From positions 34,936,440 through 35,000,439 of the forward strand of contig OX485807.1 of NCBI GenBank assembly GCA_950295325.1: 64,000 bases of DNA. Reading direction: 5' to 3'. The first letter of the stretch is position 1; each line of letters opens with the position of its first letter. This document shows positions 26,957 to 64,000 of this stretch, in pieces. A program made the position numbers and the translations under genes. Origin of the DNA: Polytrichum commune. Lineage: Eukaryota > Streptophyta > Polytrichopsida > Polytrichales > Polytrichaceae. The notes beneath the pieces were generated by a model that ran no database searches, was not told the origin of the DNA, and saw only the letters and a list, made by a program, of their open reading frames with translations.

Positions 26957-28000
26957 TAGGCCAGTTGCTGGATTGGCTTCGGCACTGGGCCAACACTTAG
27001 GAGTTGCTGTGGATTGGTTTCGGCACTGGGCAGTCACTTAGGCTAGCTGCTGGATTGGCTTCGGCACTGGGCCAACACTTAGGAGCTATTGTGGATTTGT
27101 TTCGGCACTGGGCAGTACTTAGGACCTGCTATGGATTTGTTTCGGCACTGGGCCAGCACTTAGGCCAGCTGCTGGATTGGCTTCGGCACTGGGCCAACAC
27201 TTAGGAGCTGCTGTGGATTGGTTTCGGCACTGGGCAGTCACTTAGGCCAGTTGGTGGATTGGTTTCGGATAGGGTTGTCTATCCCAACATCATGACGGTG
27301 TCGTGCCGTCATGACGTGTCGTGTCGTGACGGACCCCTCCGTCACGACACAATAGGGTCCACGTAGGGTCAACCTAGGGGGAAGCTAGTAGGGTGGGTAA
27401 AATACTTACCTTCTTGCCAAGGTGGCGTCCTATGTGGCAGAAAAGGCCGACGTGGACGTGGATATGCCTAGCGCCAGGTAAACCATTTTGCCATTCTGTT
27501 TATCATTCTGTTAAAATCAAAGTAGTAAAATATGACTAAGGAGGGTGTGGGGCGGACGGGGGTGGGGCGGACGGGGGTGGGGCGGACGGGCGCTAGTAAA
27601 TTTTTCCCCACTTTACCTCTACTTTGCTGACATGTCATCACACGTGGACATCTTACATCCTACGTGTCCGAAATGGGGTAATGTAATTACACACAGAATT
27701 CGGTAAAATTCAAGTCCGTCAGGATAAAGACAACATCCGGCATAATGTCATGACGGATACGTGTCGTGACGGCACGACATTATGCCGAGATTAGCCTCCG
27801 TCACGACACAATAGACAACCCTGGTTTCGGCACTGGGTAGTACTTAGGAGCTGCTGTGGATTTGTTTCAGCACTGGGCAGTCACTTAGGCCAACGGCTGG
27901 ATTGGCTTCGGCACTGGGCCAACACTTAGGAGCTACTGTGGATTTGTTTCGGCACTGGGCCAACACTTAGGAGCTGCTGTGGATTGGTTTCGGTACTAGC
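26957..28000 (+). repeat. 41-bp minisatellite, interrupted by an inserted element
   Basis: Monomers of about 41 bp (ACTTAGGAGCTGCTGTGG then ATTGGTTTCGGCACTGGGC and a short linker) are repeated roughly 13 times in 26957-27268 and 27823-28000, often alternating between two variants. The open frame at 27004-27204 only mirrors this periodicity and is not a gene. Confidence 0.85.
27269..27822. mobile_element. non-autonomous DNA element in the minisatellite (554 bp)
   Basis: The insertion splits a monomer. GGTTTCGG occurs directly before (27261-27268) and after (27823-27830), as an 8-bp target duplication. The ends contain AGGGTTGTCTAT and its inverse, with the left end offset by AT. Subterminal regions are packed with GTCATGACGG, CGTCACGACAC and related motifs in both orientations, typical of transposase-binding clusters. 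A 'gggtggggcggac' unit is repeated three times at about 27545-27592. The hAT assignment is an inference from the 8-bp duplication. Confidence 0.7.
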
Positions 28001-42520: not shown

Positions 42521-42899
42521 TTCCCTACTACCGGACGGGGAGTGCTATCATGTGAGCGGTGAGGGGAAACTCAAGTATGTGAGCATAGAGCGGATAGCGT
42601 AGAGCGGAGAGCGGAGAATGGAGAGCGGAAATTTTAAAATTTGTTGGGTTATTTTAGGAGAAACAATGCCTAATTCTGTGGATTTTATAGATAATATGTC
42701 TTCAATTTGGGGGAAAGGCACCCCATTCCCGTGGAGATAATAATCGAACATTGTGAGAGGAACAAACGAAACCTATAGACGTGAAAGATTGTAGATGTTA
42801 TCAAACATCTTATAGTCTAGGTTTCAAATAGTTTCATATCAAATTAGGGTTGACGTCATCAATTGAAAACAAATCAACATATGATGAACATATGAGGTA

Positions 42900-43045
42900 A
42901 ACCTTAACACAAACATTCAAACAATTCAAACCTTAACACAAAGCATTCAAACCTTAACACAAAGCATTCAAACCTTAATACAAAGCATTCAAACCTCAAC
43001 ACAAAGAATTCAACCTTAACACAAACCATTCAAAAACACTCACAA
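42900..43045 (+). repeat. 21-bp tandem repeat
   Basis: About six or seven units of 'aaccttaacacaaagcattca' with minor changes. A shorter array based on 'agagcgga' precedes it at 42587-42628. Both lie downstream of the stop codon of the minus-strand gene. Confidence 0.85.
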
Positions 43046-43269
43046 CCTTAGGTTATCTCAAGTACAACTAAACTAGGCAACCTCCAAAGAATATTCAACC
43101 CGCACACCCGAACATATCAAGAGAATTGAAACCAAATACAAACCTAAACTGAATAAGGGATTACACGAGGTTTGGAAAAGGAACATGGAAATCCAACAAA
43201 CAAACTTATAAATATTTATAGCAAAAAACAAAACATATGGTAGGGAGGTCCGATACACACGAGGAGTAG

Positions 43270-46200
43270 TTAACAACTAGGACTACCATGTCTATCACTA
43301 TCCTCGCCCTCCTCAGCCTCTATGTCTAGATAATCTAATACTAGGTTATTGAAAGGGCGGATGCGAAGAGGAGGTGGGGACGGTGCTTCTGCCAAGAGAT
43401 TGGCAAGCCCAGCCGCATAGGAAGGGAGCTCGAACGTCGTCGAAGGCGAGGAAAACATGTCGGCGGTAAGGACACGAATCGGGCTAGGAAATGGAGCTCT
43501 GAACAAACATGACAAGAAAAAAATTACATTAGACAATGGCAACAACTTCAAAGCGAGAAGGAAAAAAATGAAAAGAAGAAGTTCGAAGCCAACAACGAAC
43601 TTACGCACACAGCAAATCAAAGTTGCGTTTCGCCATCTTGCGGGGGGGAGGAGCAAAAACCGATCCCCGTTGTGGGGCCACGTGCTGTGAGGTGTGTTCT
43701 TGCTCTGCCTCACGCATGGGGAGGAGGAGTGACTTGAAGATGTCGATGTCCGACTCTAAAGCCACAATATGGCGTTGAATGGAGCGGCATGCAAGGACGG
43801 AACCTCCTAATACAACCAATTGCGGAAATGTAAGGAGACAAGAATGAAAGGAAAATGAAACAAGTAGAAAAAAAACAAAAAAAATCAAAAAATCAAAATG
43901 AAAAACAAGGAGATTAAGGACATACCAACGCCACATTGTCAATATAATATAATGTTGTCATTGTCCGTGAGTGCGGAGAAAAGAATGGAAAAAAAGTCGG
44001 CTCGTTTTTCACGAGCACCTCTCCATGACACTCCGTCTTCCCTCATAGATTGGTTATTAGCATCAACGAAGCTGTTGAGCCATCCATCTCTCTTAAGATT
44101 GTACCCCTTGTCATCAACCTCCGAAGTGCGGACTCTCAAAATTGACTCATTACGAACGAGGACCTTGATGAAAAACTTGCGAGTCTGGAAGAAATCCGAA
44201 CCTTAGAATTAGGAATTCTGAAAAACAAGGAAAAAACAAAAAAAAAAACCCAAATGTGAGGAAAGAAAGAAATTACCAATTCGGATGGAGAAGTGGGCAA
44301 CTGAAGGTCGAGGTCATTCATTCCGAACCAGTCTTCGACGACGTAGAACTCCTCCGTGTGTGCCCAGTTATGAATCAACCTAGATACTTCAGGATCTGCG
44401 GCATGTGCGAAGACTAGGACGCCGTCGTCATGCAGGTTAGCACTAGCAAAGGCAAACAAAACCTCGAAGTAAGAAGGAGATCGAGTGTTCCACTTAGGAA
44501 CCTCTAAAGGGGAGGCAAATATGTTAGGGACACGGAGGTTCTCGGGGACATCTGCAAAGAGAAGATCAATCCCTGTGTGAACCTTAGGCTTCGTATTAGG
44601 ACGAATACGGCCCCCTCCAACCTGCGAGGCAAAAATTGAAAGAAATTTAAAAAAAAACATAGATAAAGAATGTGGATTAAACGAAAAAAACATTGAATGT
44701 TACACTGACCTTTGTAATGAATTCCTGGATGCGACGGTAGGCTGGAGGTTGAACCTTAGTTCGCATGAGGTCCTCTATCAGCTCCCCCATGTCGACATTC
44801 TCAATCAAAACGAGAGAAGACGACTTCTCTGAAGAAATTGCGGAGGTATCAGGCGCGACGGCCTTCCTCTTGTGAGGAACGGAGGGGAGGGTCACACCGC
44901 TATGGGAAGGCGCAAGAACAAGGTCTGGAGCTATGGCAGAAGGAATTGCAGATGGACTACCGACAACACTTGTGGTTGGAGCAGCCGTACGCTGAACGGA
45001 GGCCTTAGTGTAAGAACGAGTGGACACCTGACTGGAGGCCACCCTCTTACATTTTCCCTTACCCTTTGCAGACCCAACCTCTTTCACAATGGGGGGAGGA
45101 GGAGGAATGGGGTCTTCTTCCGGCTCCTCCTCCAGTTCAATTACCTCCGGGGCAGAGGACACCAAGCTGCTGTAAAGGGATTCCTCTGGTTCGGGAACGA
45201 AACCACGTGAACAATCCAAGTACCAGCCACCTGCGACCAAGTGCGGGTGGGGGAATTTGGTAATCTGCATGAGAGTGTATACACACTGACTGTACCTCGT
45301 ATCGAGCCATTCTTGGAGGAATGACGGCAAAGAAGAAGAAGGAAAAGCATTCTTGACGACAAGCTCACGATGAATGTACCTGCATAGTATAGGGTATGAG
45401 AATACGAAAAATGAAGCAAAAAAAAGAATGAAATGAAATAAGGTAAAACAAATCAATATCAAAAAAGGGATTACCGATAAGCAACGCGCTTGATAGCAAT
45501 GGGGCCTTCTTCAAATTCCAAGAGATCAAGGCCTTTGACAAATTTTAAATCTCCCTTGTCGTCAAAATAAACCAAAAATGCCTTGTCCCACAAAATCAGC
45601 CTCCAATGCTCAACGTAATTGGCAGGTTGGAGAATATCCTCCGAGGAACCCCAGTCAATGTCAACATCCGCCTCATTCTCAAATGAAGCAATCTCAGCCT
45701 CAACCCCCTTCTCCAACTATGAAAAGAATGAAAAATAGTTTAGAAACCAGATTCCAAAAGTCATTAAAGAAATCTAAAACTAGGCATTGAAAATACACAT
45801 ATACCAAGCACATTGAGGTTACTGATTTCCACATATTAGTTCTAGTAAGCTTGAAAACAGATTCTAGGATTGACTTCATAATTCATTAACCAGCCCCCTG
45901 AGGTTCCTGATTTGCACATAGTAGTTCTAGGAAGCCCGAACCTAGACTCTAGGATTGACTTCATAATTAATGAAACAGCCATTGAGGTTCCTGATTTCCA
46001 CATATTAGTTGTAGTAAGCCTGAAACTAGACTCTAGGATTGACTACATAATCAAATATCAAGCCCCTTGAGGTCCCTGATTTCCACATATTAGTTCTAGT
46101 ACGCCTACAAACAGACTATAGGATTGACTTCATAATTCATTAACCAGCCCCTTGAGGTTCCTGATTTCCACATATTTGTTCTAGTAAGCCCGAAACTAGA

Positions 46201-49200
46201 GTCTAGGATTGACTTAATTATTCATTAACGAACCACTTGAGTAGCATGATTTCCACATATTAGTTCTAATAAGCATGAAACATGACACAAGGCATGACTT
46301 CAAAATTCATTAACCAGCCCCTAGGGGTTCCTGATTTCCCCACCATAGTCCAATATTGGGCCTAGACACCACACATTCTAACACCCTCTCGGAACCGAGA
46401 GGGTGGCCAACTATGTATAAACCAAAATCCATATTCTAAAACTCATTCTAAAAATCTAAGACTAGTCCTTCAAAGTCCACATTAACAAGCACATGGAGGT
46501 TCCTGATTTACACATATTTAATTTAGTTCTAGTAAGCATGAAACTAGACTCTAGGAGTGACTTTATAATCAAATATCAAGCCCCTTGAGGTCCCTGATTT
46601 CCACATTATTAGCTCTTATAGGCCAGAAACTTTACTCAAGGCTTGAATTCAAAACTCCTAGACCAGCCCCTTGGGGTTCCTCATTTCCAAATATTAGTTC
46701 TAATTGGCCAGAAACTTGACTCAATGCTTGACTTCATAATTAAATATCAAGCCCCTTAAGGTCCCTGATTTCCATATATTAGCTCTTATAGGCCAGAAAC
46801 TTTACTCAAGGATTGAATTAAAAACTCCTAGACCAGCCCCTTGGGTTCCTGATTTCCCCACCATTTTCCTATATTGGGCCTAGGCACTCCACTTTCTGAC
46901 ACCCTCTCGGAACTGAGAGGGTGCCGAGCTATGTATAAACCTGATACACTTTTCTAAATCTCATTCCAACATTCTTATACTAGTCCTACAAAGTCCACAT
47001 TTTGACACCCTCTCGAAACCGAGAGGGTGCCCAACTATGGGTAATTCTTATACCATATTCTAAATTTCAATCCAGAAATTCAAGACTAGTCTTTTAAAGT
47101 CCACATAAGCAAGCACATGGAGGTTCCTGATTTCCACATATTAGTTCTAGTAAGCCTCTAACTAGACTCTAGAATCTACTTAATAATCAAATATGAAGCC
47201 CTTTGAAATCCATGTTTTCCACATATTATGTCTAGTAAGCATTAAACTAGACTCTAGGAGTGACTTCATAATCAAAAGTCAAGCCCCTTAAGGTCCCTGA
47301 TTTCCCCATATTAGCTTTTATAGGCCAAAATTTTTACTCAAGGCTTGACTTCAAAACTCCTAGACCAGCCCCTTGGGGTTCCTCATTTCCACATATTAGT
47401 TCTAATTGGCCAGAAACTTGACTCAAGACTTGACTTCATAATCAAGTATCAAGCCCCTTGAGGTCCCTAATTTCCATATATTAGCTCTTATAGGCCAGAA
47501 ACTTTACTCAAGGCTTGAATTAAAAACTCCTAGACCAGCCCCTTGGGTTCCTGATTTCCCCACAATTTTCCTATATTGGGCCTAGGCACTCCACTTTCTG
47601 TCACCCTCTCGGAACCGAGAGGGTACCGAGCTATGTCTAAACCTGATACCATTCACTAATCTCATTCCATAATTCTTAGACTAGTCCTACAAAGTCCACA
47701 TTTTGACACTCTCTCGGAACAGAGAGGGTGCCCAATTATGGATAATCCTTATACCATATTCTAAACTTCAATCCACAAATTCAATACTAGTCTTTCAAAG
47801 TCCACATTTTGACAAGCTCTCGGAACCGAGAGGGTGCCCAACTATGTGTAAACCTGAAACCATATTCTAAAATTCCTTACAGAAATCTAAAATTTGAAAT
47901 AAAAAACGAAGAACAAACATCATTTCGGAAACCTCGAAAAGAGAAAGGATCAAAGAGAGGAAAAAAAATTGTAGATGCACCTGAGCCCAGAATGAAGCTT
48001 TGTTGAGCCAGTTTTCAAGGACTTTCTCCCTAAGAGGGAGAGACGATGGAAATCTATTCTTATCTTTGACATCGGCAGGGGAGTTCCACCAACGAAGCCA
48101 CTTGGCCTTGAAGTGGGCATCGACATGTGCAGTGGCCACCTTTTGAAGTTTTTCGATTGTCATATCAGTGACGAGGAAGGTGGAGAAATGACGGTCAATC
48201 TGCCACATACAAGAGTGAAAAGGAAGAAAGAGATATGAAGCACGACAAGATTAATAGGAGAATGAAAGACTAAATGAAAAAACAAAGATAGGAGAGGCAC
48301 CTCGTTGAAGAAATCATCACCGTTGTCCTTGTGGGCAACGGAAATGAACTTCTCAAAGTTCCGAGAACGAATGCTTTTGATCAACCTATCCTGGGCTTTT
48401 GTCATAGCCTCCCAAATTTCAGTCGAAGATCTCTGAGCCTCGGGAGTGGCCTCACGGTATAACCTTGCGGCTGTATCAGCCGCGTTTGATATCTCCCTCT
48501 GAAACAAAAAGAAAAGCATAAGGAACGCACATAAACATGGGAGAACCAAAGTCAAGGAAAAATCATCCAACATTTACCTTGTATAAAAATTTGACGAAGA
48601 CGTCTAATGTCAAGGGATACCAAGTAGGATTCTTCTCCATCTTGGACTCACACATCTTGTAGTCCGCAACGGAAAGGAGGTCTTTAAACTCCTCTAGCCT
48701 CATCTTCCCAAACGCCCGAATACGAAGTAACTTGGCGGGTAGGTTGTCCTTAACATGGTCATGTTCCGTGGACCTAAACAAATAAAATGTTAGAGGATAA
48801 AATGCGAAAAAAAAAGATAAGCTCAAGAACATCAAATATCGAACTTACCAGTTGATGTCATTCATAGCATTAAGGAAGATGGCTGTGCAATTTCTTGGAT
48901 CCACCAGAATACAATCAGCAGAGATATGCCAATCTTTGTCCAACGGGTGATGATTGTTGATGTGCCTCCACCAAGCTGTCAACCGATGGTTCCCCTCCCA
49001 CACGTAGAACATTTTGCCAACAAAGCCAGCAAGGTCGGAGTCTCCTTGGAGAATGGCATCAAACTTTGCATTGGCCTCCTGCCATAATGGACTCCAAGAG
49101 GCCTTGATGTCATCGGATACATCAAGGCCCTCATCGAGGTTGTTGTATGGAGAGACGTACATAGCTCGGTCACCATCACGATAACCCATCACAAACTCAT

Positions 49201-52200
49201 TCTCCAAACGAGCAACATCAACGCCGTTGATAGGACGAACAAGAGGAAGACAACGCAAGCGACACAATGGAATAGGGAAACGAGATTTCCCAAGAGGTTT
49301 GAATCGAACCCGCTGAATCACGGTGTTGGAATCTTGTTTCTGCGATTTCCGTACCAAAAGCTCTGTCTCATCCGGGTTCGACTCATCTAGAGGTTTTAGG
49401 CAGTCGGATACAACCGGAGCATCAATCTAAAAGGAAAGAGAAGCACAACATAAGAAGACAACACAAAAACCAAACATACAAGAAGCCGAATAAAACATTG
49501 ACACACAAAAGAAAACCTCCAAAAGTTCAACGAATCAAACACCTCTCCCTGTGAGACGTCATCAAGAGCCGCAACGAGAGCCTCAGGAGGCGAAAAATGA
49601 ACATTGACATCCTCCATTAAATGCACCCGTGATACAGTAAGAGCCAAAGCCTGCGATGCCTGCATGCACAATATACATACCATGAAAATGTGACTAGATC
49701 CTAACCTGGAGTACATATATTAATCAACAGCCCATTGAAAGTTGTGATTATCCCACATTAACTCCAAAAACGAGAGGGTGCCAATGTCCCATGGAACTGA
49801 ATCTAGGACTAGTACTTGAAAGTCCACATTCTGTCACCCTCTCAGAACCGAGAGGGTGCCCAACTATGTATAAACCAGAATCCATATAATAGAACTCAAT
49901 CCAGAAATTCAAGACTAGTCCTCCATAGTGGGTGCCCAACTATGTATAAACCTGATACCAGATTATTAATGTCTTTCCAGAATTTCAAGACTAGTCCTTC
50001 AAAGTCCACATTAGCAAGCACATGGAGGTTCCTCATTTCCACATATTAGTTCTAATAGGCCAGAAACTTGACTCAAGGCTTGACTTCATAATCAAATATC
50101 ATGCCCCTTGAGGTCCCTGATTTCCACATATTACCTCTTATAGGCCAGAAACTTGACTCAAGGCTTGACTTCAAAACTCATAGACCAGCCCCTTGGGGTT
50201 CGTGATTTCCCCACCATATTCCTACATTGTGCCTAGACACTCCACTTTATGTCACCCTCTCGGAACCGAGAGGGTGGTGAACTATGTCTAAACCTGATAC
50301 CATATTCTAATTCTCATTCCAGAATTCTTATACTAGTCCTTCAAAGTCCACATTTTGACACCCTCTCGGAACCGAGAGGGTGCCAAACTATGTATAAACC
50401 AGAATCCATATTATAGAACTCAATCCAGAAATTCAAGACTAGTCCTCCATAGTCCACATTTTGACACCCTCTCGGAACCGAGAGGGTGCCCAACTATGTA
50501 TAACCCTGATACCATATTCTAAATTTCAATCCAGAAATTCAAGACTAGTCTTTCAAAGTCCACATTTGGACACCCTCTCGGATCCGAGAGGGTGCACAAC
50601 TATGTGTAAACCCGAAACCATATTCTAAAATTCAATCAAGAAATTCAAGACTAGTCCTCCAAAGTTCACATTTGGACACCCTCTCGGAACCGAGAGGGTG
50701 CCCAACTATGGATAATCATGATACCAGATTCTAAATGTCATTCCAGAAATTCAAGAGTAGTCCTTCAAAGTCCACATTAGCACGCACATGGAGGTTCCCA
50801 ATATGATGTGGGGATCCCACCCCTCCACCACCCTCTCGGATCCGAGAGGGTCCCTACCAAGAAGCCCCTAGAAACTTCACACCATCATAACTTTCTCATA
50901 CGTTCTCTGATTTTGACAAGTGACCCCTTCATCTTCATCTACGTTTCTTGTACATGCCAATGGACTACTCATTTGCCACATTCAGGCAAGTATTGAGGAA
51001 GTTATGCCTATTGAAAGCTAGGTCCAAAGCAAAATCTGATGTGGGGATCCTACACCTCCACCACCCTCTCGGATCCGAGAGGGTGTCGATGTGACATATC
51101 ATGTACACAAACACATACTCTCACATATCATATACCCAAAGAAATACCTCACACCTCCTTCAAAGCTAGGTCCCAAAGCAAAACATGACGTGGGGATCCT
51201 ACACCTCCACCACCCTCTCGGATCCGAGAGGGTGTCTATGTGACATATCATGTACACAAACACGTTCTCTCACATATCATATATCCAAAGAAATACCTCA
51301 CACCTCCTTCAAAGCTAGATCCCAAAGCAAAATATGATGTGGGGATCCCACCCCTCCACCACCCTCTCGGATCCGAGAGGGTTTCTATGGGACATATCAT
51401 GTACACAAACATATACTCTTACATATCATATACCCAAAGAAATACCTCACACATCCTTCAAACCTAGATCCCAAAGCAAAATATGATGTGGAGATCCCAC
51501 TCCTCCACCACCCTCTCGGATCCGAGAGGGTCCCTACCAAGAAGCCCCTAGAAACTTCAGACCATCATAACTTTCTCATACATTCTCCGATTTTGACAAA
51601 TGACCCCTCCATCTTCATCTACATAACCAACACTTGCAAGATTGACCTTAGAATCTAGTCCACATGGGCCTTCCCCATGACCCTCGCGGATCCGAGAGGG
51701 TCCTTTCTTTGCGTTGGACGCATGCACCTCAAGCTTGCCAAACATGGAAGGTTTTGTAATAAACTCCCTACCAAACTCATTTGAATTAAAGGATAACTCT
51801 ATTACCCTAGTAAAAATTTCCGCCCTATCCCTAATCCCTTCGGCTACTTGCCTAAAATTTAAAAATTGGCTCGGTAAATATCCTAAAATATGAGGCCTCA
51901 ACCGGCTATATTGCCGATATTTTCTCATTTCAACCAGTCAATTAGTTGTAATTGGCCAGAAACTTGACTCAATGCTTGACTTCATAATCAAATATCAAGC
52001 CCCTTAAGGTCCCTCATTTCCATATATTAGCTCTTATAGGCCATAAACTTTACTCAAGGCTTGAATTCAAAACTCCTAGACCAGCTCCTTTGGTTCCTGA
52101 TATCCCCACCATTTTCCTATATTGGGCCTAGGCACTCCACTTTCTATCACCCTCTCGGAACCGAGAGGGTGCAGAGCTATGTCTAAACCTGATACCATTT

Positions 52201-55025
52201 CCTAAATCTCATTCCAGCATTCTTATACTAGTTCTACAAAGTCCACATTTTGACACCCTCTCGGAACCGAGAGGGTGCCCAATTATGGAAAATCCTTATA
52301 CCATATTCTAAATGTCATTCGAGGAATTCAAGACTAGTCCTTCAAAGTCCACATTTTCAATCACATGGAGGTCCCCGATTTCCACATATTAGTTCTAGTA
52401 AGCATGAAACTAGACTCTAGGAGTGACTTTATAATCAAATATCAAGCCCCCTGAGGTCCCTGATTTCCACATTATTAGCTCTTATAGGCCAGAAATTTTA
52501 CTCAAGGCTTGACTTCAAAACTCCTAGACCAGCCCCTTGGGGTTCCTCATTTCCACATATTAGTTCTAATTGGCCAGAAACTTGACTCAAGACTTGACTT
52601 CATAATCAAGTATCAAGCCCCTTGAGGTCCCTAATTGCCACATATTAGTTCTAATAGGCCAGAAGCTTGACTCAAGGCTTGACTTCAAAACTCCCAGACC
52701 AGCCCCTTGGGGTTCCTCATTTCCACATATTAGTTCTAATTGGCCAGAAACTTGACTCAAGACTTGACTTCATAATCAAGTATCAAGCCCCTTGAGGTCC
52801 CTAATTGCCACATATTAGTTCTAATAGGCCAGAAGCTTGACTCAAGGCTTGACTTCAAAACTCCCAGACCAGCCCCTTGGGGTTCCTCATTTCCACATAT
52901 TAGTTCTAATTGGCCAGAAACTTGACTCAAGACTTGACTTCATAATCAAGTATCAAGCCCCTTGAGGTCCCTGATTGCCACATATTAGTTCTAATAGGCC
53001 ATAAACTTGACTGAAGGCTTTACTTAAAAACTCATAGACCAACCCCTCTGGGTTCCTGATTTCCCCACTATTTTCCTATATTGGGCCTAGGCACTCCACT
53101 TTCTGTCACCCTCTCGGAACCAAGAGGGTGCAGAGCTATGTCTAAACCTGATACCATTTCCTAAATCTCATTCCAACATTCTTATACTAGTCCTACAAAG
53201 TCCACATTTTGACACCCTCTCGGAACCGAGAGGGTGCCCAACTATGGATAATCCTTATACCATATTCTAAACTTCAATCCACAAATTCTATACTAGTCTT
53301 TCAAAGTCCACATTAGCAAGCACATGTAGGTTCTTGATTTCCACATATTAGCCTTAGTAAGCCTCTTACTAGACTATAGAATTTACTTAATAATCAAATA
53401 TGAAGCCCCTTGAAAACCATATTTTCCACATATTATGTCTAGTAAGCATTAAACTAGACTCTAGGAGTGACTTCATAATCAAAAGTCAAGCCCCTTAAGG
53501 TCCCTGATTTCCCCATATTAGCTCTTATAGGCCAGAAATTTTACTCAAGGCTTGACTTCAAAACTCCTAGACCAGCCCCTTGGGGTTCCTCATTTCCACA
53601 TATTAGTTCTAATTGGCCAGAAACTTGACTCAAGACTTGACTTCATAATCAAGTATCAAGCCCCTTGAGGTCCCTAATTGCCACATATTAGTTCTAATAG
53701 GCCAGAAGCTTGACTCAAGGCTTGACTTCAAAACTCCTAGACCAGCCCCTTGGGGTTCCTCATTTCCACATATTAGTTCTAATTGGCCAGAGACTTGACT
53801 CAAGACTTGACTTCATAATCAAGTATCAAGCCCCTTGAGGTCCCTGATTGCCACATATTAGTTCTAATAGGCCAGAAACGTGACTCAAGCCTTGACTTCA
53901 AAACTCCTAGACCAGCCCCTTGTGGTTCTTGATTTCCCCACCATATTCCTAAATTGTTCCTAGACACTCCACTTTCTGTCACCCTCTCGGGTGCCGAACT
54001 ATGTCTACACCTGATACCATCTTCTAAATCTCATTCCAGAAATCTCAAACTCACTTGTTCTTGAGAAGCCTTGGCCTTCGCCTTGGCCTTCGAACATGGG
54101 GATGCCTTCCTCCTTGCCTCAGCTGACCCTTCCTCCGAACTGCCGAACTCTCTCCTCCCTCCGACCTACCCTAACTCCGAACTGCCAAACTCTCTCCTCC
54201 CTCCGACCTACCCTAACTCCGAACTGCCAAACTCTCTCCTCCCTCCGACCTACCCTAACTCCCTCCGAACTATCTCCTCCCTCCTACCCTAACTCCCTCC
54301 AAACTCTACTAGGTTTGCGGCTAGGGTTTCCTCTCCCACTTGGTCCCTGCCTAGTCGAATGCCGAGAGCCTACTTGCGGAGGACACTATGACATTAACCT
54401 ACATTTTCTTTGACCCTCTCGGTTCCGAGAGGGTCCGTTCCTATACTACCCTCTTTCATGATGAACTCATTTAAACAAAATGAGAACTTCCTACAACTAC
54501 CTGTCTGGTTAACATTCATATTATGGGTCATTTTCCACATCCAGTCAACATGCACTTTATGAAGATTCACATTACATACCTCAATTTCAACATGTCATTT
54601 TCCATATAACCAAAATGTATATCTGACCCTCGTGCATCAAACCCTAAACCCATACTTACATTGCTTATTGTGTCTTCTTTTGTCTCCTCCTCCGATCCGC
54701 TCGTGTCGGAATTGCTTCGTTGCTCGCTCTCTCCCATCGATGGTTCGCGTGATTCACTATGCTCCCGTTCTTCCTCTATCCGTTCCAGCTCCTCGTTCCT
54801 ACTATATGTCCCTATCTCGTCCTCTCCGCCCGTCTTGCTCAAATCTGTTGGTGGCTCACTTCCCTGAGTACAAGTTTGCTCCTTCTTCCTAAGTTCTCTC
54901 CGTCGCCTCTGTTTAGAATTGCTAAAACTCGTGCCTCCCTTTCTTTTCTTCCTCTTTCTTCCAGGATCGGCAGTGGAGACTTGACTATTTCTTGGTTCCT
55001 TCATGTGTGCGTCCCGGTTTGCCAA
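43270..55025 (-). CDS. ParB-like / beta-class DNA methyltransferase-like protein, 13 exons (one in-frame stop)
   Basis: Exons from the 5' end (minus strand): 55025-54660, 54132-54055, 49659-49543, 49426-48849, 48773-48578, 48498-48301, 48199-47981, 45716-45475, 45379-44710, 44621-44277, 44184-43926, 43806-43605, 43498-43270. Every junction is GT-AG and all phases close: 1,232 codons plus stop. Residues 1-122 are highly charged with basic clusters (GRKRKKRKGG), likely nuclear. Residues about 210-380 contain WEGNHRLTAW (GNHR at 332-335), the ParB/sulfiredoxin-type box. Residues about 750-880 are Pro/Ser-rich linker. Residues 889 onward follow beta-class methyltransferase order: IDLLFADVPE (motif IV, normally DPPY), the strand DDGVLVFAHA, then QCGVGGSVLAC and HIVALESD (motifs I and II). 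A TGA at 43941-43939 (codon 1085) interrupts just before motif I. ParB box before methyltransferase is a known phage/bacterial layout. The function in a plant is unknown. Exon 2's acceptor is the least sure boundary. Confidence 0.72.
45717..47980. repeat. intron 7 of the minus-strand gene: satellite-like array with 24-bp palindromes
   Basis: Built from two interleaved units. One, about 85 bp, reads 'gatttccacatattagttct...aggccagaaacttgactcaa...aaagccccttgaggt'. The other, about 110-120 bp, contains a palindrome with arms CACCCTCTCGG and CCGAGAGGGTG around AA. Palindromes at 46382-46405 (perfect), 46900-46923, 47006-47029, 47602-47625, 47707-47730 and 47813-47836 (each with one to a few mismatches). 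No coding potential; the flanking exons keep their frame. Confidence 0.85.
50865..51020 (+). mobile_element. fragment related to the LTR at 57086-58848
   Basis: Shares order and wording with about 57577-57720: 'accatcataact', 'catcttcatctacg', 'gccaatggactactc', 'attcaggcaagt', 'gaggaagttatgcct'. It lies directly beside an AT-centre palindrome. A second shorter match is at 51542-51625. It shows that LTR-derived pieces entered this intron. Confidence 0.65.
51030..51535 (+). repeat. 149-bp tandem repeat, each unit with one AT-centre palindrome
   Basis: Units start near 51038, 51187, 51337 and 51486 ('gatgtggggatcc...'). Each holds a palindrome and 'gacatatcatgtacacaaac' plus 'aaagaaatacctcacac'. 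Spacing is 149-150 bp. These units have nothing in common with the 85/115-bp units except the palindrome. Confidence 0.85.
51703..51928 (-). other. unidentified open frame fragment inside intron 2
   Basis: Minus-strand reading without stops gives FLNFRQVAEGIRDRAEIF and IELSFNSNEFGREF, protein-like and unrelated to the satellite around it. It ends next to a palindrome at 51679-51702. It might be a captured piece of a retroelement gag or another gene; I do not recognise it. Confidence 0.3.
54146..54295. repeat. 42-bp tandem repeat in intron 1 of the minus-strand gene
   Basis: Three near-identical units 'cctaccctaactccgaactg' + 'ccaaactctctcctccctccga' followed by degenerate halves. The three-phase open frames on + here only reflect the repeat. 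Confidence 0.85.
54412..54435. repeat. 24-bp palindrome in intron 1 (TT centre)
   Basis: Arms GACCCTCTCGG and CCGAGAGGGTC around TT. The TT centre is the AA centre read on the other strand, so this copy lies in the opposite orientation to most. It is the copy closest to the divergent promoter (about 600 bp). Confidence 0.85.
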
Positions 55026-55328
55026 TACTCGTCTCTCTCCTATCCTCTTCTATTAGGGCATCGCACTCACATAATAACTCGTTCCTTTGCTTGTATTGTT
55101 CTTTATATTGCCAGTGCTTGAGGGTTAGGGTTTCCCTATTTCAGGCAGCCGTCCCATTTTTTCCCTTTTTGGCATCCTTTCCCTATTCTTTTTATATAAA
55201 CATTACTTCTACGTCTTCTGTTCCTTCGGTGATGGACATGGTGTCATCACAACGTTTGTCTTCACCATTCTTCTCCTATATAAATCTTTGCATCTTTGTT
55301 CATTTACGTTTGTATTTTCTCTGCCTTC
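55026..55328. promoter_or_regulatory. divergent promoter region between the two linked genes
   Basis: Start codons lie at 55025 (minus) and 55329 (plus). TATA-like boxes: TATATAAA at 55193-55200 and 55277-55284 for the + gene, and AATATAAA (minus strand) at 55102-55109 for the minus gene. The region is pyrimidine-rich on the + strand. The spacing suits a shared bidirectional promoter, which is inference. Confidence 0.5.
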
Positions 55329-57085
55329 ATGTCTTCTACCTCAATGGCCGAAATTCGTTCTCATGGCATCGGCGTCCCTATTCTCTTCCCCATTGATGCA
55401 CATGGTATTGTTGTTGTCTCGGAGCGTCATCTTTGCATTAGGTTCTCTCTTCAAGCTGATACAGTATGGGTAGAGCGTGAGATCTTCGATCCTGATACTG
55501 GATTGCTCGTTCATACCTTCCATGAGTCCTCCAAGCTAACTGACAATGGCAATGTGTGGGAGCTTGGCGCTGGACAGTATAGGGTTGTTGGCTGGCCAGA
55601 TTCTGAGATGAGAGTGTCAACAAAACTCCTTGCTCCTCTTCGATCTTCCACTGCTGACTTTAGCACACCTCCGGTAATAAGTGTCAAGACCGAGCCTGAC
55701 ATAGAGAATGTTGTAGACTTGTCTGATTCTTCGACTGAAGATGTATCTGTGAAGAAGGCTGCTGTTCATGATTCCCCTTCTTTGTTTCCCTCTGATTCCT
55801 TTGTAACGCCTTCTCCTTCTTGCTCTGTGCCTTTATCTCCTTCGGTCCCGTCTACGTCTAAACCTCCACTAGTGCATAAGGCTGCTGTTCATGATTCCCC
55901 TTCTTTGTTTCCCTCTTATTCCTTTGTAACGCCTTCTCCTTCTCGCTATGCGCCTTTATCTCCTTCGGTACCGTCTACGTCCAAACCTCCACCACCTATT
56001 GTTCAATGTCTTCGTCGTCTTGGTTCTATACCCGGTAGTAAAAGTGTCCTCCAGAAAATAGATTACGATAAAATCAAAATCCAAGAGGTTAATCACCTTC
56101 CCCCTCGTTTCGATGGTACCCAGTTATTTGTCCTCCCTGCACCAGAAGTCTCTTCATCTCAATCCAGGGCCAAGTCCATGGACGGCATGGACAAGCAATA
56201 TGATGGCCATGTTTGGACGAGAACGCAAACCACCAACATCACAAACGACGTTGGCCTTGTATTTCGTTCCTCTACCTGTGTTTGGCCATCTCCAATGCCA
56301 AAACCCTACTTGTGATTACCTTCAACGTGCCCATCGTATCTCTCAGGTCAACGACACGGAATTTGATGGTTTCACTACTCAGCCTTTCCCTCTCTCTGGC
56401 ATTGTGCCATCCGGATCTACTCTTGTGTGCAGGATCTGCAAACAACCTCCCAAATGCATTGCACTCTGCGAGGCGAAAATTTTCTACGTCCATGGGAAGA
56501 ATTTCTCCCAAAGAGCCTGCATTCATATCGGAACTCATCAACATCCCGTGAAGGTTGGAGAGTGCAGACACAGTCGGAAGCGCATCAATGCTCTTCTCGA
56601 GGAGCACGTTGAGCGTACGCCTCAAGCCACGCACAGCAAGATCGTCCTTGAAGCCAGCAAGGACATTGTTGGTGAGTTCCTCCTTTCCGAGGATAGTGAC
56701 AAACATCGTCTCCTCTCCCTAAAGGAGCTCGAACCTGTGTTTGAGAGCTGTAGAGAGTTGAATTCCCCAAACCTTTGTTCTAAGGTTACCTCTTTCAAAT
56801 TTTTGCGGAGGTTCGGTGTTATGGATGGCATCTCTAAGCTCCGAGGCGTTAGCAATTGGGCCTACGTCCAACGGAACCAATTCCCAAGACAAGGTGACGA
56901 TGCCGACAAAGTGTTCGTCTTCAAGATGTCGGAGGTTGGTCCTGGAAGCGGTGTGGATTTGGTTCGTCGGATGCAACCGGGTGGGGACCTTGAGAACGCC
57001 TGGATTATATCCGATCACGTCAAGCGGGTCAAAGGGTGGACCACCATGGCCGCTCATGTGTATGATGGGACTTATCAACGGGTCA
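55329..57085 (+). pseudogene. Cys/His-cluster transposase-like protein, frameshifted and cut by an LTR
   Basis: Starts MSSTSMAEIRSHGIG (an upstream in-frame ATG at 55296 is less likely). A first frame runs to about 56205: a beta-rich N-terminus (DTGLLVHTFHESSKLTDNG), then a Ser/Pro-rich linker with a duplicated unit KAAVHDSPSLFPS (about 55755 and 55879). Near 56200 the reading shifts by one base into MFGRERKPPTSQTTLALYF and continues open to 57085. The second part has a cluster CQNPTC (56296), CRICKQPPKC and CEAKIFYVHG, ACIHIG and ECR, probably zinc-binding. It then has KFLRRFGVMDGISKLRG and a tail GWTTMAAHVYD, whose Asp (57064-57066) could be the first of a DDE triad. The LTR starts at 57086, so the rest is missing. 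Transposase is my reading of the layout; I could not assign a superfamily. Confidence 0.6.
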
Positions 57086-58848
57086 TGTCGCAACCCTTGC
57101 TAGGTCCCTTAATAATCTTGCCAATTTTCAATTCTAGCAAAGGTTACGAGTCGCTAACCCTTCGCATTCCGCCATGCTAATGGTTAGCTCCTCTTACCCC
57201 GGACCAATAGTTCATAGGAGGGAACCAACCCTCCTACTTTGCTTTCGGGACTCACCCCTTAATCGGTAACCCATTTCCCCAATGTGGACTTCCATCCATG
57301 GAAGTCCAATCCTATGTTGATCATCGCGTTGCCGGAGCAACACTACAACAACCCGAAGCATACTAGGCAACTATGGCCTCACAATGGGCCAATGCCCATG
57401 GAGGCCGTGCCGTTCGGCCTCGGGTGGGTGAGGCCACACCACCTCACCCATATAAGCCTCTAGGACTCTACACGGAGCCCCTACCCCACCGCCAACCAAC
57501 CTCTTGTCTCTCTACCAAGAGTTGGGGCCAAGTGGACATTTTCCCTTAGCTGCTGGGCCTAGAACCCCCCCAGCAGCTTCAGACCATCATAACTTCCTTG
57601 TATGATGTCTGATCATAACAACCAACCACTCCATCCTCATCTACGCTTCACGTAGATGCCTATGGACTCCTCACTTGCCCCATTCAGGCAAGTCTTGAGG
57701 AAGTTATGCCTGTTTGAACCTTGGCAGTCCCGGGAATCACTCCCAGGCACTGCTGTACCAGGGCGCTGTCCCGGGACAGCACCCCACTCAAATGGCCATA
57801 ACTCCTAGCTCACACCTCCGATTGAGGTGATCTTGAGCATTCTAGAATCACCACGCCATGAGCTACGCATAGCTCATGGCCTCACCCTCATGCCTCCTAG
57901 TCTTTGTGGGTGGGAGGCGTTCCCAACGCCCGGGGCCCTCACCCACACTAGGATCACTTGGGCCCTCTCACCAACGGCGCCACAAGTCCCGGGTGTCACT
58001 CCGGGGTCCCCCTTGTGCCCATGGTGTTTCGGCCACTCCTCATGGAGAGGTGCGCGACACTCACCCCCACCAAACGGAGTCGATGCCCTCATCGACTATA
58101 CTCGTAGTCGGTACACCAATTCTCAAGTTGCCATCCTCTATGGTGCCGCATTGTGTTTACCTTAGGACGCGACCCCCACAATGCATCTTCAAATTTGGCA
58201 TGGTCCCAAAGGTGTCGTTCCTAGGTGGTCCGTTAGCGACCTTGGATCTCTCATCCAAGGACCTAACCTATACTAGACCCACCTACTTTGGGACTCACTT
58301 GGGTTGCCCCTCCTTTGGGGCCTCCCCCGTTAGGCTCCACTAGCCTTACGTGACACATCTGGGCGAGACCTCAACGCTTCCACTAAGTTGTCTCGGTTGC
58401 AACTCCGAGATGGCTTTCCATTGTTAAGCCACGCCTCGATCGCACGGGGGTGATGCCAAGTCCCGCCCGACTCGGTTCCCACTTTGCTCTTTTGAGACAT
58501 GGGTTCATGACTCCCATGCGCCAACTCTCGTTAGCTCGCGGGTAGCACTTTTATGAGCACGCGCCATCACCTTGTCCCCGCCCGGACAAGCCCACAACTA
58601 AGAAGTTTCTTGGTTTTATCCAAGGCCCCTCCAAGCCATGGCCCCCAATTACTCGGCTTACCCAACCTAGTTTGGCATATCTATTCCCCCTCTTCCATTA
58701 ACCAAGCACAAGTACAAGACTAGGACCTCATCTCATACTTTTCTCTTTGCACCACTAAAGTTTGGACTTTATTCCCTCAAGCCAAAGAACAAGTTCATGT
58801 TGTGGAGCAATTAGCCTCGAAGCTAAGTGTGCTACTAGCGTCTCTCCC
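57086..58848 (-). mobile_element. Ty3/gypsy LTR, copy A (full length, about 1.76 kb)
   Basis: Begins TGTCGCAACCCTTGC within the transposase-like frame and ends at ...GCGTCTCTCCC, where copy B starts. Copies B and C begin with the same TG and are highly similar. Strand is taken from the integrase fragments. Hairpin-forming segments recur: around 57291 (GGACTTCCAT), 57550 (AGCTGCTGGG), 57640 (ATCTACG), 57766 (GCTGTCCC), 57857 (CCATGAGCTA), 58078 and 58097. The conserved open frames inside are shadows. It has no recognised coding role. Confidence 0.75.
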
Positions 58849-59830
58849 TGTCGCAACCCTTGCTAGCCCCCTTAGCAATCTTGCCAATTTTCTTTTCTAG
58901 CAAAGGTTACGAGCGCTAACCCTTCGCATACCGCCATGCTAATGGTTAGCTCCTCTTACCCCGGACCATTAATTCAAAGGAGGGGAACCAACCCTCCTAC
59001 TTTGCTTTCGGGACTCACCCCTTAATCGGTAACCCATTTCTTCGATGTGGACTTCCATCCATGGAAGTCCAATCCTATGTTCATCATCGCGTTGCCGGAG
59101 CAACACTACAACAACCCGAACCATACTAGGCAACTATGGCCTCACAATGGGCCAATGCCCATGAAGGCCGTGCCGTTCGGCCTCGGGTGGGTGAGGCCAC
59201 ACCACCTCACCCATATAAGCCTCTAGGACTCTACACGGAGCCCCTACCCCACCGCCAACCAACCTCTTGTCTCTCTACCAAGAGTTGGGGCCAAGTGGAC
59301 ATTTTCCCTTAGCTGCTGGGCCTAGAACCCCCCCAGCAGCTTCAGACCATCATAACTTCCTTGTATGATGTCTGATCATAACAACCAACCACTCCATCCT
59401 CATCTACGCTTCACGTAGATGCCGATGGACTCCTCGCTTGCCCCATTCGGGCAAGTCATGAGGAAGTTATGCCTGTTTGAACCTTGGCAGTCCCGGGAAT
59501 CACTCCCAGGCACTGCTGTACCAGGGCGCTGTCCCGGGACAGCACCCCACTCAAATGGCCATAACTCCTAGCTCACACCTCCGATTGAGGTGATCTTGAG
59601 CATTCTAGAATCACCACGCCATGAGCTACGCATAGCTCATGGCCTCACCCTCATGCCTCCTAGTCTTTGTGGGTGGGAGGCGTTCCCAACGCCCGGGGCC
59701 CTCACCCACACTAGGATCACTTGGGCCCTCTCACCAACGGCGCCACAAGTCCCGGGTGTCACTCCGGGGTCCCCCTTGTGCCCATGGTGTTTCGGGCACT
59801 CCTCATGGAGAGGTGCGCGACACTCCCCCA
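58849..59830 (-). mobile_element. Ty3/gypsy LTR, copy B (internally deleted)
   Basis: Matches copy A from its first base to 'gcgcgacactc' (about 59825), then jumps to the LTR's far end 'ccccca', losing about 780 bp. The short C-run at the junction suggests deletion by microhomology. It is followed by internal sequence with integrase fragments. Confidence 0.75.
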
Positions 59831-61040
59831 CTAAAGGAGATTGATGTCCTCATCAATGCCTACGCTTCTTTTTATTGGAATGTCTAGCCTTAATTTCTTC
59901 AAAGTGCTTTACCAATTCCTTGCCGTTCATCATGTCTCTTGCCGCTACCCAAACGGCTTCTTTCTCATGGTATCCTCACCATTTCACCAAGTACTCCTTT
60001 GTTCATTTTCTTTCTTTTTCACTTGGGCTTCCTACACTTGAGGATGCCCTCCTACCTCATGTTCCAAATGAAATCCACAAGGTCGGGAGGTGGCCTAATC
60101 ACTTGCTTGTAATTGGGCCACAAGGTGTCGTCCTTAAATGGCTTTAGGAATGAGACATGAAATGTTGGATGCACTTTGATCTCGGGCGGTAATTCCAACT
60201 TATACATGTCCTTGAACACTTGTTCCACAATGGGAAACGGAGCTCCAATTTTGGACATGAACTTTGGAGTGAGGCCTTCCGGCTAAGTGAAGTTGTTCAC
60301 ATTCAACAACATCTTTTGGCCCACCTCATTCTCCACTTCGCGTCTTCCGGCATTGACTTGCACTTCGTAGCACATTCGGGCTTTCTCCACCAACAACTTG
60401 GTCATCTCCAAGACTTGTTTACATTCTTGGCCAAGTCCTCACCATCTTGGTTGAACTCTAGTGTTGAATGTGCCCCCTCGAGAGCTAGGTTAATAGGTTG
60501 GAGCGCATCCACTCCATAAGCCACCACCAAAGACCACCCCTTGGTAGCCAAGTGCGTGGCTACATTGCAATTTTACTCCGCTCGACCCACATAGTCCGCC
60601 CAATCTCTTTGGTCCGCCCCCACCAAGTTCCTCAAGTATTGCTTCAAGACTCCATTCACACGCTCCGTTTTCCCATCCATTTGGGAATGCAAGGCCGTGC
60701 TAAACCTTAGTTTCCTTCCGACCTCCTTAGAGAAATGCATTGAAAATGCACTTGTGAATTTTGGATCTTGATCCCACACAATCACTCTTGGCAACCCGTG
60801 GTGCCTCAACCATCCTTTGAGAAAAGCCTATGCGGTCTTCAACGCGGTGGCGGCTCCCACAATCGGCACCATGTGTGCCAACTTGGCAAACCGCTCTACC
60901 ATCAACAAGATGGCATCATACCCATGTGTGAGACCAAATCCACCACCCTTAAGCGTCCTAGTCCGGGTGATGACTTTGAGAATCACATTTGTCTATCACA
61001 ACATGGAACCATATGCAAGGTGATTTTCATGTTTAAATGA
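59831..61040 (-). pseudogene. Ty3/gypsy integrase fragment (core and C-terminal domain)
   Basis: On the minus strand, from about 60960 down: VERFAKLAHMVPI, LRHHGLPRVIVWDQDPKFTS (second catalytic Asp region), KLRFSTALHSQMDGKTERVN (contains the Glu), YLRNLVG. Then the C-terminal module LTPKFMSKIGAPFPI, YKLELPPEIKVHPTFHVSFLKP at 60258-60100. Reverse transcriptase, RNase H, protease and gag are absent. Stops include a TAG in NFT*PE (about 60285) that also occurs in the second copy at about 63835. The element cannot be autonomous. Confidence 0.88.
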
Positions 61041-61410
61041 ACATGCATTGTCTCACTCATTGTACTTCATTAATGTTGGCCTCTTGGCTTGTGCTAGAGT
61101 TGGCTTTCTCAAGAGTCCAACCCGCGGCTTTAGCCGCACATGCCCTCAATGATTTTCCCCTTGCATACTTTGACCCAACCTCCTTTGTCTTCCCCTCGCG
61201 GAAGTCCTCCACCTTCTCCATTACTTGTGCACTTGATTTATTTAATAGAGAGGATACAAGCGTTAAAAAACGCTATTTCCCATAATCAATCCTAAGTGCA
61301 ATTACTTATGAAACCCACACGTGCCTCCACCTAACCTAATGTGGCCAACTACTTATCTATAAACTAATATAGTCTAATATAGTCTATAAACTAATGTAAT
61401 AATATAAACT

Positions 61411-61619
61411 AATCAGTCTCAGCCGCAGCTAACCAGCTACCCAAAATACAGTCCCGACCACAGCCAACCAGCTGCCTCCGATGCAGTCGCAGCCGCAGTT
61501 AACCAGTTGCCTCTTGATACAGTCCCGGCCACAGCTAACCAGCTGCCTCCAATGCAATCACAACCACAGCTAACCAGCTGCCTCCAATGCAGTCGCAACC
61601 ACAGCTAACCAGCTGCCTC
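61411..61619. repeat. about 38-bp tandem repeat next to LTR copy C
   Basis: Five or six units of 'cagctaaccagctgcctc' plus 'caatgcagtcgcaaccac' with variation. It lies where the left-hand internal region meets LTR C and replaces the expected 5' internal sequence. Confidence 0.8.
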
Positions 61620-63382
61620 TGTCGCAACCCTTGCTAGCCCTCCTTGACCATCTTGCCAATTTTCGTTTCTAGCAAAGGTTACGAGCGCTAACCATTCGCA
61701 TTCCGCCATGCTAATGGATAGCTCCTCTTACCCCGGACCAATAGTTCATAGGAGGGAACCAACCCTCCTACTTTGCTTTCGGGACTCACCCCTTAATCAG
61801 TAACCCATTTCCCCAATGTGGACTTCCATCCATGGAAGTCCAATCCTATGTTGATCATCGCGTTGCCGGAGCAACACTACAACAACCCGAACCATACTAG
61901 GCAACTATGGCCTCACAATGGGCCAATGCCCATGGAGGCCGTGCCGTTCGGCCTCGGGTGGGTGAGGCCACACCACCTCACCCATATAAGCCTCTAGGAC
62001 TTCACGCGGGGCCCCTACCCCACCGTCAACCAACCTCTTGTCTCTCTACCAAGAGTTGGGGCCAAGTGGACATTTTCCTTTAGCTGCTGGGCCTAGAACC
62101 CCCCCAGCAGCTTCAGACCATCATAACTTCCTTGTATGATGTCTGATCATAACAACCAACCACTCCATCCTCATCTACGCTTCACGTAGATGCCGATGGA
62201 CTCCTCACTTGCCCCATTCGGGCAAGTATTGAGGACGTTATGCCTGTTTGAACCTTGGCAGTCCCGGGAATCCCTCCCAGGCACTGCTGTACCAGGGCGC
62301 TGTCCCGGGACAGCGCCCCACTCAAATGGCCATAACTCCTAGCTCACACCTCCGATTGAGGTGATCTTGAGCATTCTAGAATCACCACGCCATGAGCTAC
62401 GCATAGCTCATGGCCTTACCCTCATGCCTCCTAGTCTCTGTGGGTGGGAGGCGTTCCCAACGCCCGGGGCCCTCACCCACACTAGGATCACTTGGGCCCT
62501 CTCACCAACGGCGCCACAAGTCCCGGGTGTCACTCCGGGGTCCCCCTTGTGCCCATGGTGTTTCGGGCACTCCTCATGGAGAGGTGCGCGACACTCACCC
62601 CCACCAAACGGAGTCGATGCCCTCATCGACTATACTCGTAGTCGGCACACCAATTCTCAAGTTGCCATCCTCTATGGTGCGGCATTGTGTTTACCTTAGG
62701 GCGCGACCCCCACAATGCATCTTCAAATTTGGCATAGTCCCAAAGGTGTCGTTACTAGGTGGTCCGTTAGCGACCTTGGAACTCCTCCAAGGACCTAACC
62801 TACAATAGACCCACCTACTTTGAGACTCACTTGGGTTGCCCCTCCTTTGGGGCCTCCCCCGTTAGGCTCCACTAGCCTAACATGACACATCTAGGCGAGA
62901 CCTCAACGCTTCCACTAAGTTGTCTCGGTTGCAACTCCGAGATGGCTTTCCATTGTTAAGCCACGCCTCGATCGCACGGGGGTGATGCCAAGTCCCGCCC
63001 GACTTGGTTCCCACTTTGCTCTTTCGAGACATGGGTTCATGACTCCCATGCGCCAACTCTCGTTAGCTCGCGGGTAGCACTTTTATGAGCACGCGCCATC
63101 ACCTTGTCCCCGCCCGGACAAGCCCACAACTAAGAAGTTTCTTGGTTTTATCCAAGGCCCCTCCAAGCCATGGCCCCAATTACTCGGCTTACCCAACCTA
63201 GTTTGGCATGTCTATTCCCCCTCTTCCATTAACCAAGCACAAGTACAAGACTAGGACCTCATCTCATACTTTTCTCTTTGCACCACTAAAGTTTGGACTT
63301 TATTCCTTCAAGCCAAAGAACAAATACATGTTGTGGAGTAATTAGCCTCGAAGCTAAGTGTGCTACTAGCGTCTCTCCCCCA
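61620..63382 (-). mobile_element. Ty3/gypsy LTR, copy C (full length)
   Basis: Same start as A and B (TGTCGCAACCCTTGC) and the same body as A, ending ...TCTCTCCCCCA. On its right begins the 3' part of another internal region, so by integrase orientation this is the 3' LTR of an element extending beyond the window. Sequence differences from copy A are few. Confidence 0.78.
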
Positions 63383-64000
63383 CTAAAGGAGATTGATGTC
63401 CTCATCAATGCCTACGCTTCATTTCATTGGAGTGTCTAGCCTTAGTTTCTTCAAAGTGCTTTACCAATTCCTTGCCGTTCATCATGTCTCTTGCCGCTAC
63501 CCAAACGGCTTCTTTCTCATGGTATCCTCACCATTTCACCAAGTACTTCTTTGTACATTTTCTTTCATTTTTACTTGGGCTTCCTACACTTGAGGATGCC
63601 CTCCTACCTCATGTTCCAAATGACGTCCACAAGGTGGGGAGGTGGCCTAATCACTTGTTTGTGATCGGGCCACAAGGTGTCGTCCTTAAATCGTTTTAGG
63701 AATGAGACATGAAATGTGGGATGCACTTTGATCTTGGGCGGTAATTCCAACTTATATATGTCCTTGAACACTTGTTCCACAATGGAAAACGGAGCTCCAA
63801 TTTTGGACATGAACTTTGGAGTGAGGCCTTCCGGCTAGGTGAAGTTGTTCACATTCAACAACACCTTCTGGCCCACCTCATTCTCCACTTCGCGTCTTCC
63901 GGCATTGACTTGCACTCCGTAGCACCTTCGGGCTTTCTCCACCAACAACTTGGTCATCTCCAAGACTTGTTTACCATCCTTGGCCAAATCCTCACCATCT
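63383..64000 (-). pseudogene. Ty3/gypsy integrase C-terminal fragment, runs off the window
   Basis: A second copy of the sequence at 59831-60450: YKLELPPKIKVHPTFHVSFLK at 63810-63650 and the same TAG in NFT*PE. The window ends before the integrase core. Confidence 0.82.

Follow-up and report, generated by a model that had tools for sequence, protein, structure and literature searches.

A DNA transposon of the moss Polytrichum commune carries a gene for a methyltransferase-derived protein and arrays of a 22-bp palindrome in the introns of that gene

In a stretch of 64,000 nucleotides on contig C5 of the Polytrichum commune genome (the window), a sequence-only reading described a plant gene of 13 exons in which a ParB box is followed by a beta-class DNA methyltransferase domain. 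Such a gene raises the question of whether it belongs to the moss, to a bacterial contaminant or to a mobile element, and of what its protein may do. The gene, referred to here as the cargo gene, runs on the minus strand from 55004 down to 43270, and its 13 exons with GT-AG sites and compatible phases were confirmed, except that the start of exon 2 remains uncertain (54165 would suit the phase). The motifs that drew attention to it are WEGNHRLTAW in exon 4, IDLLFADVPE and DDGVLVFAHA in exon 10, and QCGVG joined to GSVLAC...HIVALESD across exons 11 and 12. Among the genomic copies compared, exon 1 and exons 3-13 are kept in other lineages of the element described below. The joined exons 3-13 match a long annotated protein of Ceratodon purpureus with 28% identity over 84% of the query (E 3e-88). 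This moss is the source of both protein relatives found, in searches that scored about 8000 candidates sharing most words, and a wider occurrence is possible. The conservation of the cargo gene exceeds chance, because it has a homolog at E 3e-88 and because 18 of 20 pairs of copies have a dN/dS well below 1.

The cargo gene is part of a DNA transposon, and the mobility, the ends, the target duplications and the gene pair of this element are demonstrated by its copies. Comparison of copies revealed common, imperfectly inverted ends, with GGGAAACTCAAGTATGTGAGCGTAGAGCGG as the left end and ...CCGCTCTACGCACACATACAAGTGTCGTCC as the right end, and AGAGCGG-type repeats come after the left terminal inverted repeat. 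Target duplications of 10 bp were found in all five copies of which both ends were read, namely copy B, two copies on C4, one copy on C7 and the window copy, whose duplication has one mismatch. The window element is 42.65 kb long, nested insertions included, and continues beyond the window (Table 1). The genome searched is made up of 64 contigs with 407.8 Mb in total; seven of them account for 406.1 Mb, and a chromosome number of seven would suit Polytrichales. A first look at the genome gave 284 candidate left ends and 286 candidate right ends (40 of each scored), together with 183 candidate places for exon 4 (40 scored). The copy numbers given here are lower bounds. Among the 40 scored, five other copies of exon 4 are 98-99% identical and are located on C2, C6 and C7. 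Bacterial contamination as the source of the gene was rejected because of its GT-AG introns and its copies on chromosome-sized contigs.

The proposal of a plant gene family has accordingly given way to that of cargo in a high-copy DNA transposon, as the inverted ends and the 10-bp duplications indicate. Many introns, and relatives in Ceratodon that are annotated as long proteins, are what would be expected of an ordinary multi-copy host family, a fusion of ParB and methyltransferase duplicated by recombination with the transposon as a mere neighbour. However, this explanation is very improbable. The gene sits between common inverted ends, and the 10-bp target duplications flanking its copies are found at different places in the genome; it also has five near-identical exon-4 copies on three other chromosomes and is paired with a transposase gene. 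An ordinary host gene family is refuted, unless the target duplications are due to chance.

Table 1. Positions of the element, its two genes and the palindrome-bearing introns in the window.
Feature	Position	Strand	Remarks
DNA transposon	42564..64000, on past the window to C5:35021652 (window-equivalent 85213)		size increased by nested insertions
Left target-site duplication GAGCGGTGAG	42554..42563		right partner GAGCAGTGAG, C5:35021653-35021662, beyond the window
Left terminal inverted repeat GGGAAACTCAAGTATGTGAGC[A/G]TAGAGCGG	42564..42593	+	imperfect partner of the right end ...CCGCTCTACGCACACATACAAGTGTCGTCC
Cargo exon 13 and stop codon	43270..43498	-	conserved in other element lineages
Cargo exon 12	43605..43806	-	remaining motif I and acidic loop (GSVLACRS..HIVALESD)
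Cargo exon 11	43926..44184	-	motif X, then the beginning of motif I; window copy with an in-frame TGA
Cargo exon 10	44277..44621	-	methyltransferase motif IV region (DLLFADVPE)
Cargo exon 9	44710..45379	-	acidic/proline-rich linker; conserved in other element lineages
Cargo exon 8	45475..45716	-	conserved in other element lineages
Intron 7 (2264 bp)	45717..47980	-	related repeats; 2 perfect palindromes
Cargo exon 7	47981..48199	-	conserved in other element lineages
Cargo exon 6	48301..48498	-	conserved in other element lineages
Cargo exon 5	48578..48773	-	conserved in other element lineages
Cargo exon 4	48849..49426	-	conserved domain with FYVWEGNHRLTAWW (ParB-like by eye only)
Cargo exon 3	49543..49659	-	conserved in other element lineages
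Intron 2 (4395 bp)	49660..54054	-	85-, 106- and 149-bp tandem repeats; 13 perfect 22-bp palindromes ACCCTCTCGGNNCCGAGAGGGT
Cargo exon 2	54055..54165	-	clear donor, uncertain acceptor
Intron 1 palindrome	54413..54434		single site, flank unlike the repeat units
Cargo exon 1	54660..55004	-	ATG; charged, low-complexity N-terminus; conserved in other element lineages
Putative transposase gene, 5' part	55329..57087	+	divergent to the cargo gene; frameshift near 56280; truncated at 57087 by a nested insertion

The partner gene encodes a putative transposase, and this identity is inferred from its position within the element together with a set of conserved residues, D, E and C-x2-H. In alignment A2, the residues D557, D587, D623, E649, C652 and H655 are invariant or nearly so, and in copy A the gene is open over 692 codons from stop to stop. 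A total of 142 relatives were found at E <= 0.1, and a precomputed Pfam domain is present in none of the 120 listed. A scored transposase copy lies within 60 kb of 22 of the 40 scored exon-4 copies, the window included, and all 22 pairs are head-to-head, where 0.47 neighbours of any kind would be expected by chance. The other 18 have no scored transposase copy nearby, the pairing having used only 40 scored transposase copies of 466 candidates.

These conserved residues resemble the pattern D..D..C-x2-H of Mutator-like elements (MULEs). The element has terminal inverted repeats, as MULEs do, and the 10-bp target duplication of all five copies falls in the range of 8-11 bp given for MULEs (PMC6446971). 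However, no MULE profile of Pfam was matched by any of 49 transposases, and for this reason the element is not filed under MULEs. The same 49 proteins gave 16 scattered weak matches in Pfam, of which zf-Tnp_2 (one member, E 6.9) was the sole transposase-related one, while NCBIfam had no match for transposase P0003 and a PDB profile search returned one irrelevant match, Dad4. Copy A (L009) is located on C6 near 9498429, and a second, related transposase N-terminus (MATIRALHHSIPLMIPLG...) was seen just past its right end.

On profile evidence, the C-terminal domain of the cargo protein descends from beta-class DNA amino-methyltransferases, and the layout recognised by eye has been borne out. The two Ceratodon relatives match PF01555 (N6_N4_Mtase) with 30.4 bits (P0001) and 35.0 bits (P0002) against a cut-off of 26.7, and they are matched by PHROG DNA methyltransferases with a best E of 8e-9; the window cargo protein itself has no Pfam match, PF01555 included. 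In hhalign, the region of motif X/I aligned with prokaryotic enzymes at 95% probability (E 4e-8), and none of 100 column shuffles reached the real methyltransferase score. The partners in this comparison were four prokaryotic or phage proteins, the ParB-methyltransferase fusion L072 and the fusions L075, L076 and L078, which match L072 over 86-97% of its length. The best PDB matches of the region were weak (DpnA, E 0.05-0.11; CcrM, E 1.4), and further matches in the same searches, at E 0.15-1.7, were to MJ1557, to colicin-E5 and to a designed peptide; these were taken as chance. The motif order is that of N6_N4_Mtase, with motif IV before X/I, a glycine-rich motif I and an acidic loop, and the latter two are kept in most copies. 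The tblastn matches listed for phages and plasmids were mostly DNA methyltransferases with 22-41% identity and E up to 1, besides some unnamed or hypothetical proteins, and no donor can be named because the bacterial relatives are too distant.

The motif IV of amino-methyltransferases is SPPY, DPPY, NPPY or DPPW (PMC8885841). In the window genome it reads DVPE or a variant of it in all 23 copies, each lacking the aromatic residue, so that none of them has the catalytic (D/N/S)PP(Y/F/W) form. Catalysis in the window lineage is doubtful because of this missing residue, and the methyltransferase of this lineage has probably lost it; that of Ceratodon, whose DTPF and DQPY are near-matches to the catalytic motif, may retain the ability to methylate. 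Self-methylation, with the protein as a working N4C or N6A methyltransferase that gives the element a mark of bacterial type, for instance on the palindromes described below, would be in keeping with the retained motif order, motif I and acidic loop, with the two Ceratodon motifs and with a eukaryotic precedent, the bdelloid N4CMT (PMC8885841). Judged against a non-aromatic motif IV in every copy of this genome, it is nevertheless an unlikely explanation. The N4CMT resembles the cargo protein as a bacterial-type amino-methyltransferase in a eukaryote with a link to transposons, but it is a host gene with an intact SPPY and a chromodomain, which acts against transposons and is not their cargo (PMC8885841).

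The N-terminal half gave a different result, and the ParB box could not be upheld. Ceratodon has a clear counterpart of the segment FYVWEGNHRLTAWW of exon 4. With Pfam, neither the window protein nor P0001 nor pieces of either gave a ParB match, and PF02195 occurs in the whole genome at three places only, on two small bacterial-looking contigs. The PDB and PHROG searches returned nothing relevant. In hhalign, the N-terminal domain reached a probability of 0.3% against 11 ParB N-terminal pieces, whereas the 11 true ParBs of the positive control, each left out in turn, were recovered at 97.8-99.5%. The trimmed core scored 13.2, within the range of the shuffles (mean 11.5, maximum 19.7). The alignments A1 and A3, in which window fragments led to misplaced parts of exon 4, were excluded from the analysis. 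A ParB domain as an established feature is therefore rejected on the Pfam, PHROG, PDB profile and hhalign results with their positive controls. The GNHR motif may reflect a distant fold of the ParB or sulfiredoxin type, but the ParB label is best dropped for now, and the N-terminal domain of the cargo protein is described as conserved with an unassigned fold. The prokaryotic and phage fusions differ in this respect, as their own N-terminal pieces are recognised as ParB, and L072 moreover has DPPY. The capture of prokaryote-like machinery, which the sequence-only reading had suggested, is still plausible as far as the methyltransferase part is concerned. The small contigs C12 (L072) and C23 (L073) carry bacterial-looking ParB genes, including a ParB-methyltransferase fusion of 443 aa, and are probably bacterial or phage contamination.

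The window copy of the cargo gene is broken, whereas stop-free copies exist elsewhere in the genome. Exon 11 of the window reads IILY*QCGVG, with an in-frame TGA at methyltransferase motif I that had been overlooked when an uninterrupted product was described, and the integrity of the whole gene in this copy is rejected on that account. The 22 other aligned copies are all free of a stop at this position, most of them reading DWQCG or a near variant, and L042 and L047 carry a stop one codon beyond it. For exons 10-12, three of 23 sequences (L030, L033 and L035) are without stops or length changes, and for exon 4 this holds for 17 of 28.

The protein sequence has been maintained between lineages of the element. 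In pairs that were hand-picked among the fetched copies, several of them broken themselves, dN/dS of exons 10-12 was 0.11-0.29 in seven of eight pairs, the eighth being very young (0.96, dS 0.02), and dN/dS of exon 4 was 0.11-0.34 in 11 of 12 pairs, the twelfth (0.50) being a comparison with a decayed copy. Furthermore, exons 10-12 are more similar than introns 10-11 in all eight pairs. Since dN/dS between lineages is mostly 0.11-0.34, the cargo protein is under purifying selection, and by this measure it is judged to be useful to the element during its spread.

The introns of the cargo gene contain a possible clue to this use. All 16 perfect copies of the palindrome ACCCTCTCGGNNCCGAGAGGGT in the window lie in them, 13 in intron 2, two in intron 7 and one in intron 1, and the other nine cargo introns have none. 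The window contains 39 nine-base half-sites, where its base composition would lead one to expect 0.19 in 64 kb, and within the window no half-site falls outside 42567-57087. The whole genome has 1998 perfect palindromes, and the reversed-pattern control gave 0. The palindromes sit in 106- and 149-bp units in the window, in 139-bp units at L070 (23 sites) and in one single site, and the flanks of different unit types agree at 19-35 of 80 positions. The highest value (35 of 80) is that between the 106- and 139-bp units, which have a short common stretch by eye and are perhaps related, not independent. In L071, from a lineage at 80%, there are four near-matches and no perfect palindrome. Across 36 aligned 106-bp units, which were picked by their flanks, the core is 97% conserved and the flanks 92%; the palindrome as a protein target is better argued from its recurrence in differing surroundings than from this conservation of the core.

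The palindromes may have no protein partner, being the product of a satellite-like expansion of introns or a source of RNA hairpins that feed small-RNA silencing. They are mostly found in tandem repeats, which can expand by themselves, their 10-bp arms could on reasoning form an RNA hairpin, and their core is just slightly more conserved than the flanks. We give this explanation only a small chance, however, as the identical 22 bp recur in repeat units and in a single site with largely unalike flanks, and the half-sites are absent elsewhere in the window. The location of the arrays in the gene's own introns suggests a self-marking or anti-silencing system instead. As with VANC, a candidate target motif is arrayed in tandem repeats of noncoding DNA of the element, the role as target being our proposal.

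In the reading that we prefer, a two-gene DNA transposon combines a putative transposase with a divergent accessory gene, the cargo, whose protein of about 1240 residues has a conserved N-terminal domain and a C-terminal domain of methyltransferase descent. Active copies would make this protein, the protein would recognise the arrays of the 22-bp palindrome, and by this recognition it would mark or shield the element against host silencing, as VANC does for VANDAL. In the window lineage it would act through binding of DNA or SAM rather than through catalysis. That a protein derived from a methyltransferase and encoded by the transposon recognises the palindromes, and protects or marks the element it comes from, is our leading proposal, tentative as it is and a little short of an even chance. 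We are more hesitant about the narrower proposal that the protein reads the palindromes of its own introns as a self-contained, sequence-specific system of marking or unsilencing, a methyltransferase-based counterpart of VANC. Alternatively, the protein that binds the palindromes could be the transposase, or the palindromes could function as an RNA hairpin or owe their spread to repeat amplification alone.

The cargo protein might instead be a co-factor of transposition, helping the transposase to cut or join the ends, with palindromes that are structural or regulatory and a methyltransferase descent that is incidental. The divergent orientation fixed in 22 pairs and the loss of the catalytic motif IV residue would both suit such a helper, but the window palindromes are in internal introns, away from the left end, and the ends of the element carry different repeats of the AGAGCGG type, so that we regard this role as rather improbable.

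Few transposons are, to our knowledge, equipped with a countermeasure of their own against host silencing, namely those with VANC in Arabidopsis and, as a proposal, those with the TET/JBP cargo in fungi, and we know of no derivation of VANC from a methyltransferase. VANC of the Arabidopsis VANDAL elements binds to a short motif, copies of which have built up in tandem repeats, among them those in the introns of VANC21 and VANB21 (PMC5735166), and it induces the loss of silent marks (PMC5735166, PMC10398659). The moss element is similar in its accessory gene within a transposon, in its motif repeats in noncoding DNA and in introns of the accessory gene, and in its fast-changing units; it differs in that the VANC21 motif is a 9-mer and the motif here a 22-bp palindrome, and the two systems are likened by anatomy, not by VANC sequence. 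Fungal DNA transposons captured TET/JBP dioxygenases, for which an escape from methylation-based silencing was proposed (PMC12730594). There a DNA-modification enzyme is the cargo, as a methyltransferase-derived protein is here, but the fungal cases involve an oxygenase, fungi as hosts and other transposase lineages. Among the literature matches listed, none concerned a moss transposon with a methyltransferase.

If the preferred reading is true, the moss element would represent another biochemical solution to silencing, in an early-diverging land plant and with a DNA target that is easily tested. The element also illustrates how a DNA-modification enzyme of bacterial type can survive in a eukaryote, as the cargo of a transposon and under selection. 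For annotation, the locus is a warning that genes of this kind can be mobile elements and not host genes.

Some minor observations concern repeats and old copies. Other repeats interrupt the transposon at 57087 and occupy window positions 57088-62453, and one unit, about 347 bp long, is seen at 57573, at 59336, at 62107 and again near copy C. On C4, the interval of about 41.9-58.6 Mb holds 28 of the 34 scored copies of the methyltransferase exons at 76-80% identity, and old copies may be frequent there because the region is heterochromatic or sex-linked. Outside the element, window positions 26867-27997 contain tandem repeats of 22-122 bp, many of which are built on GTTTCGGCACTGGGC units.
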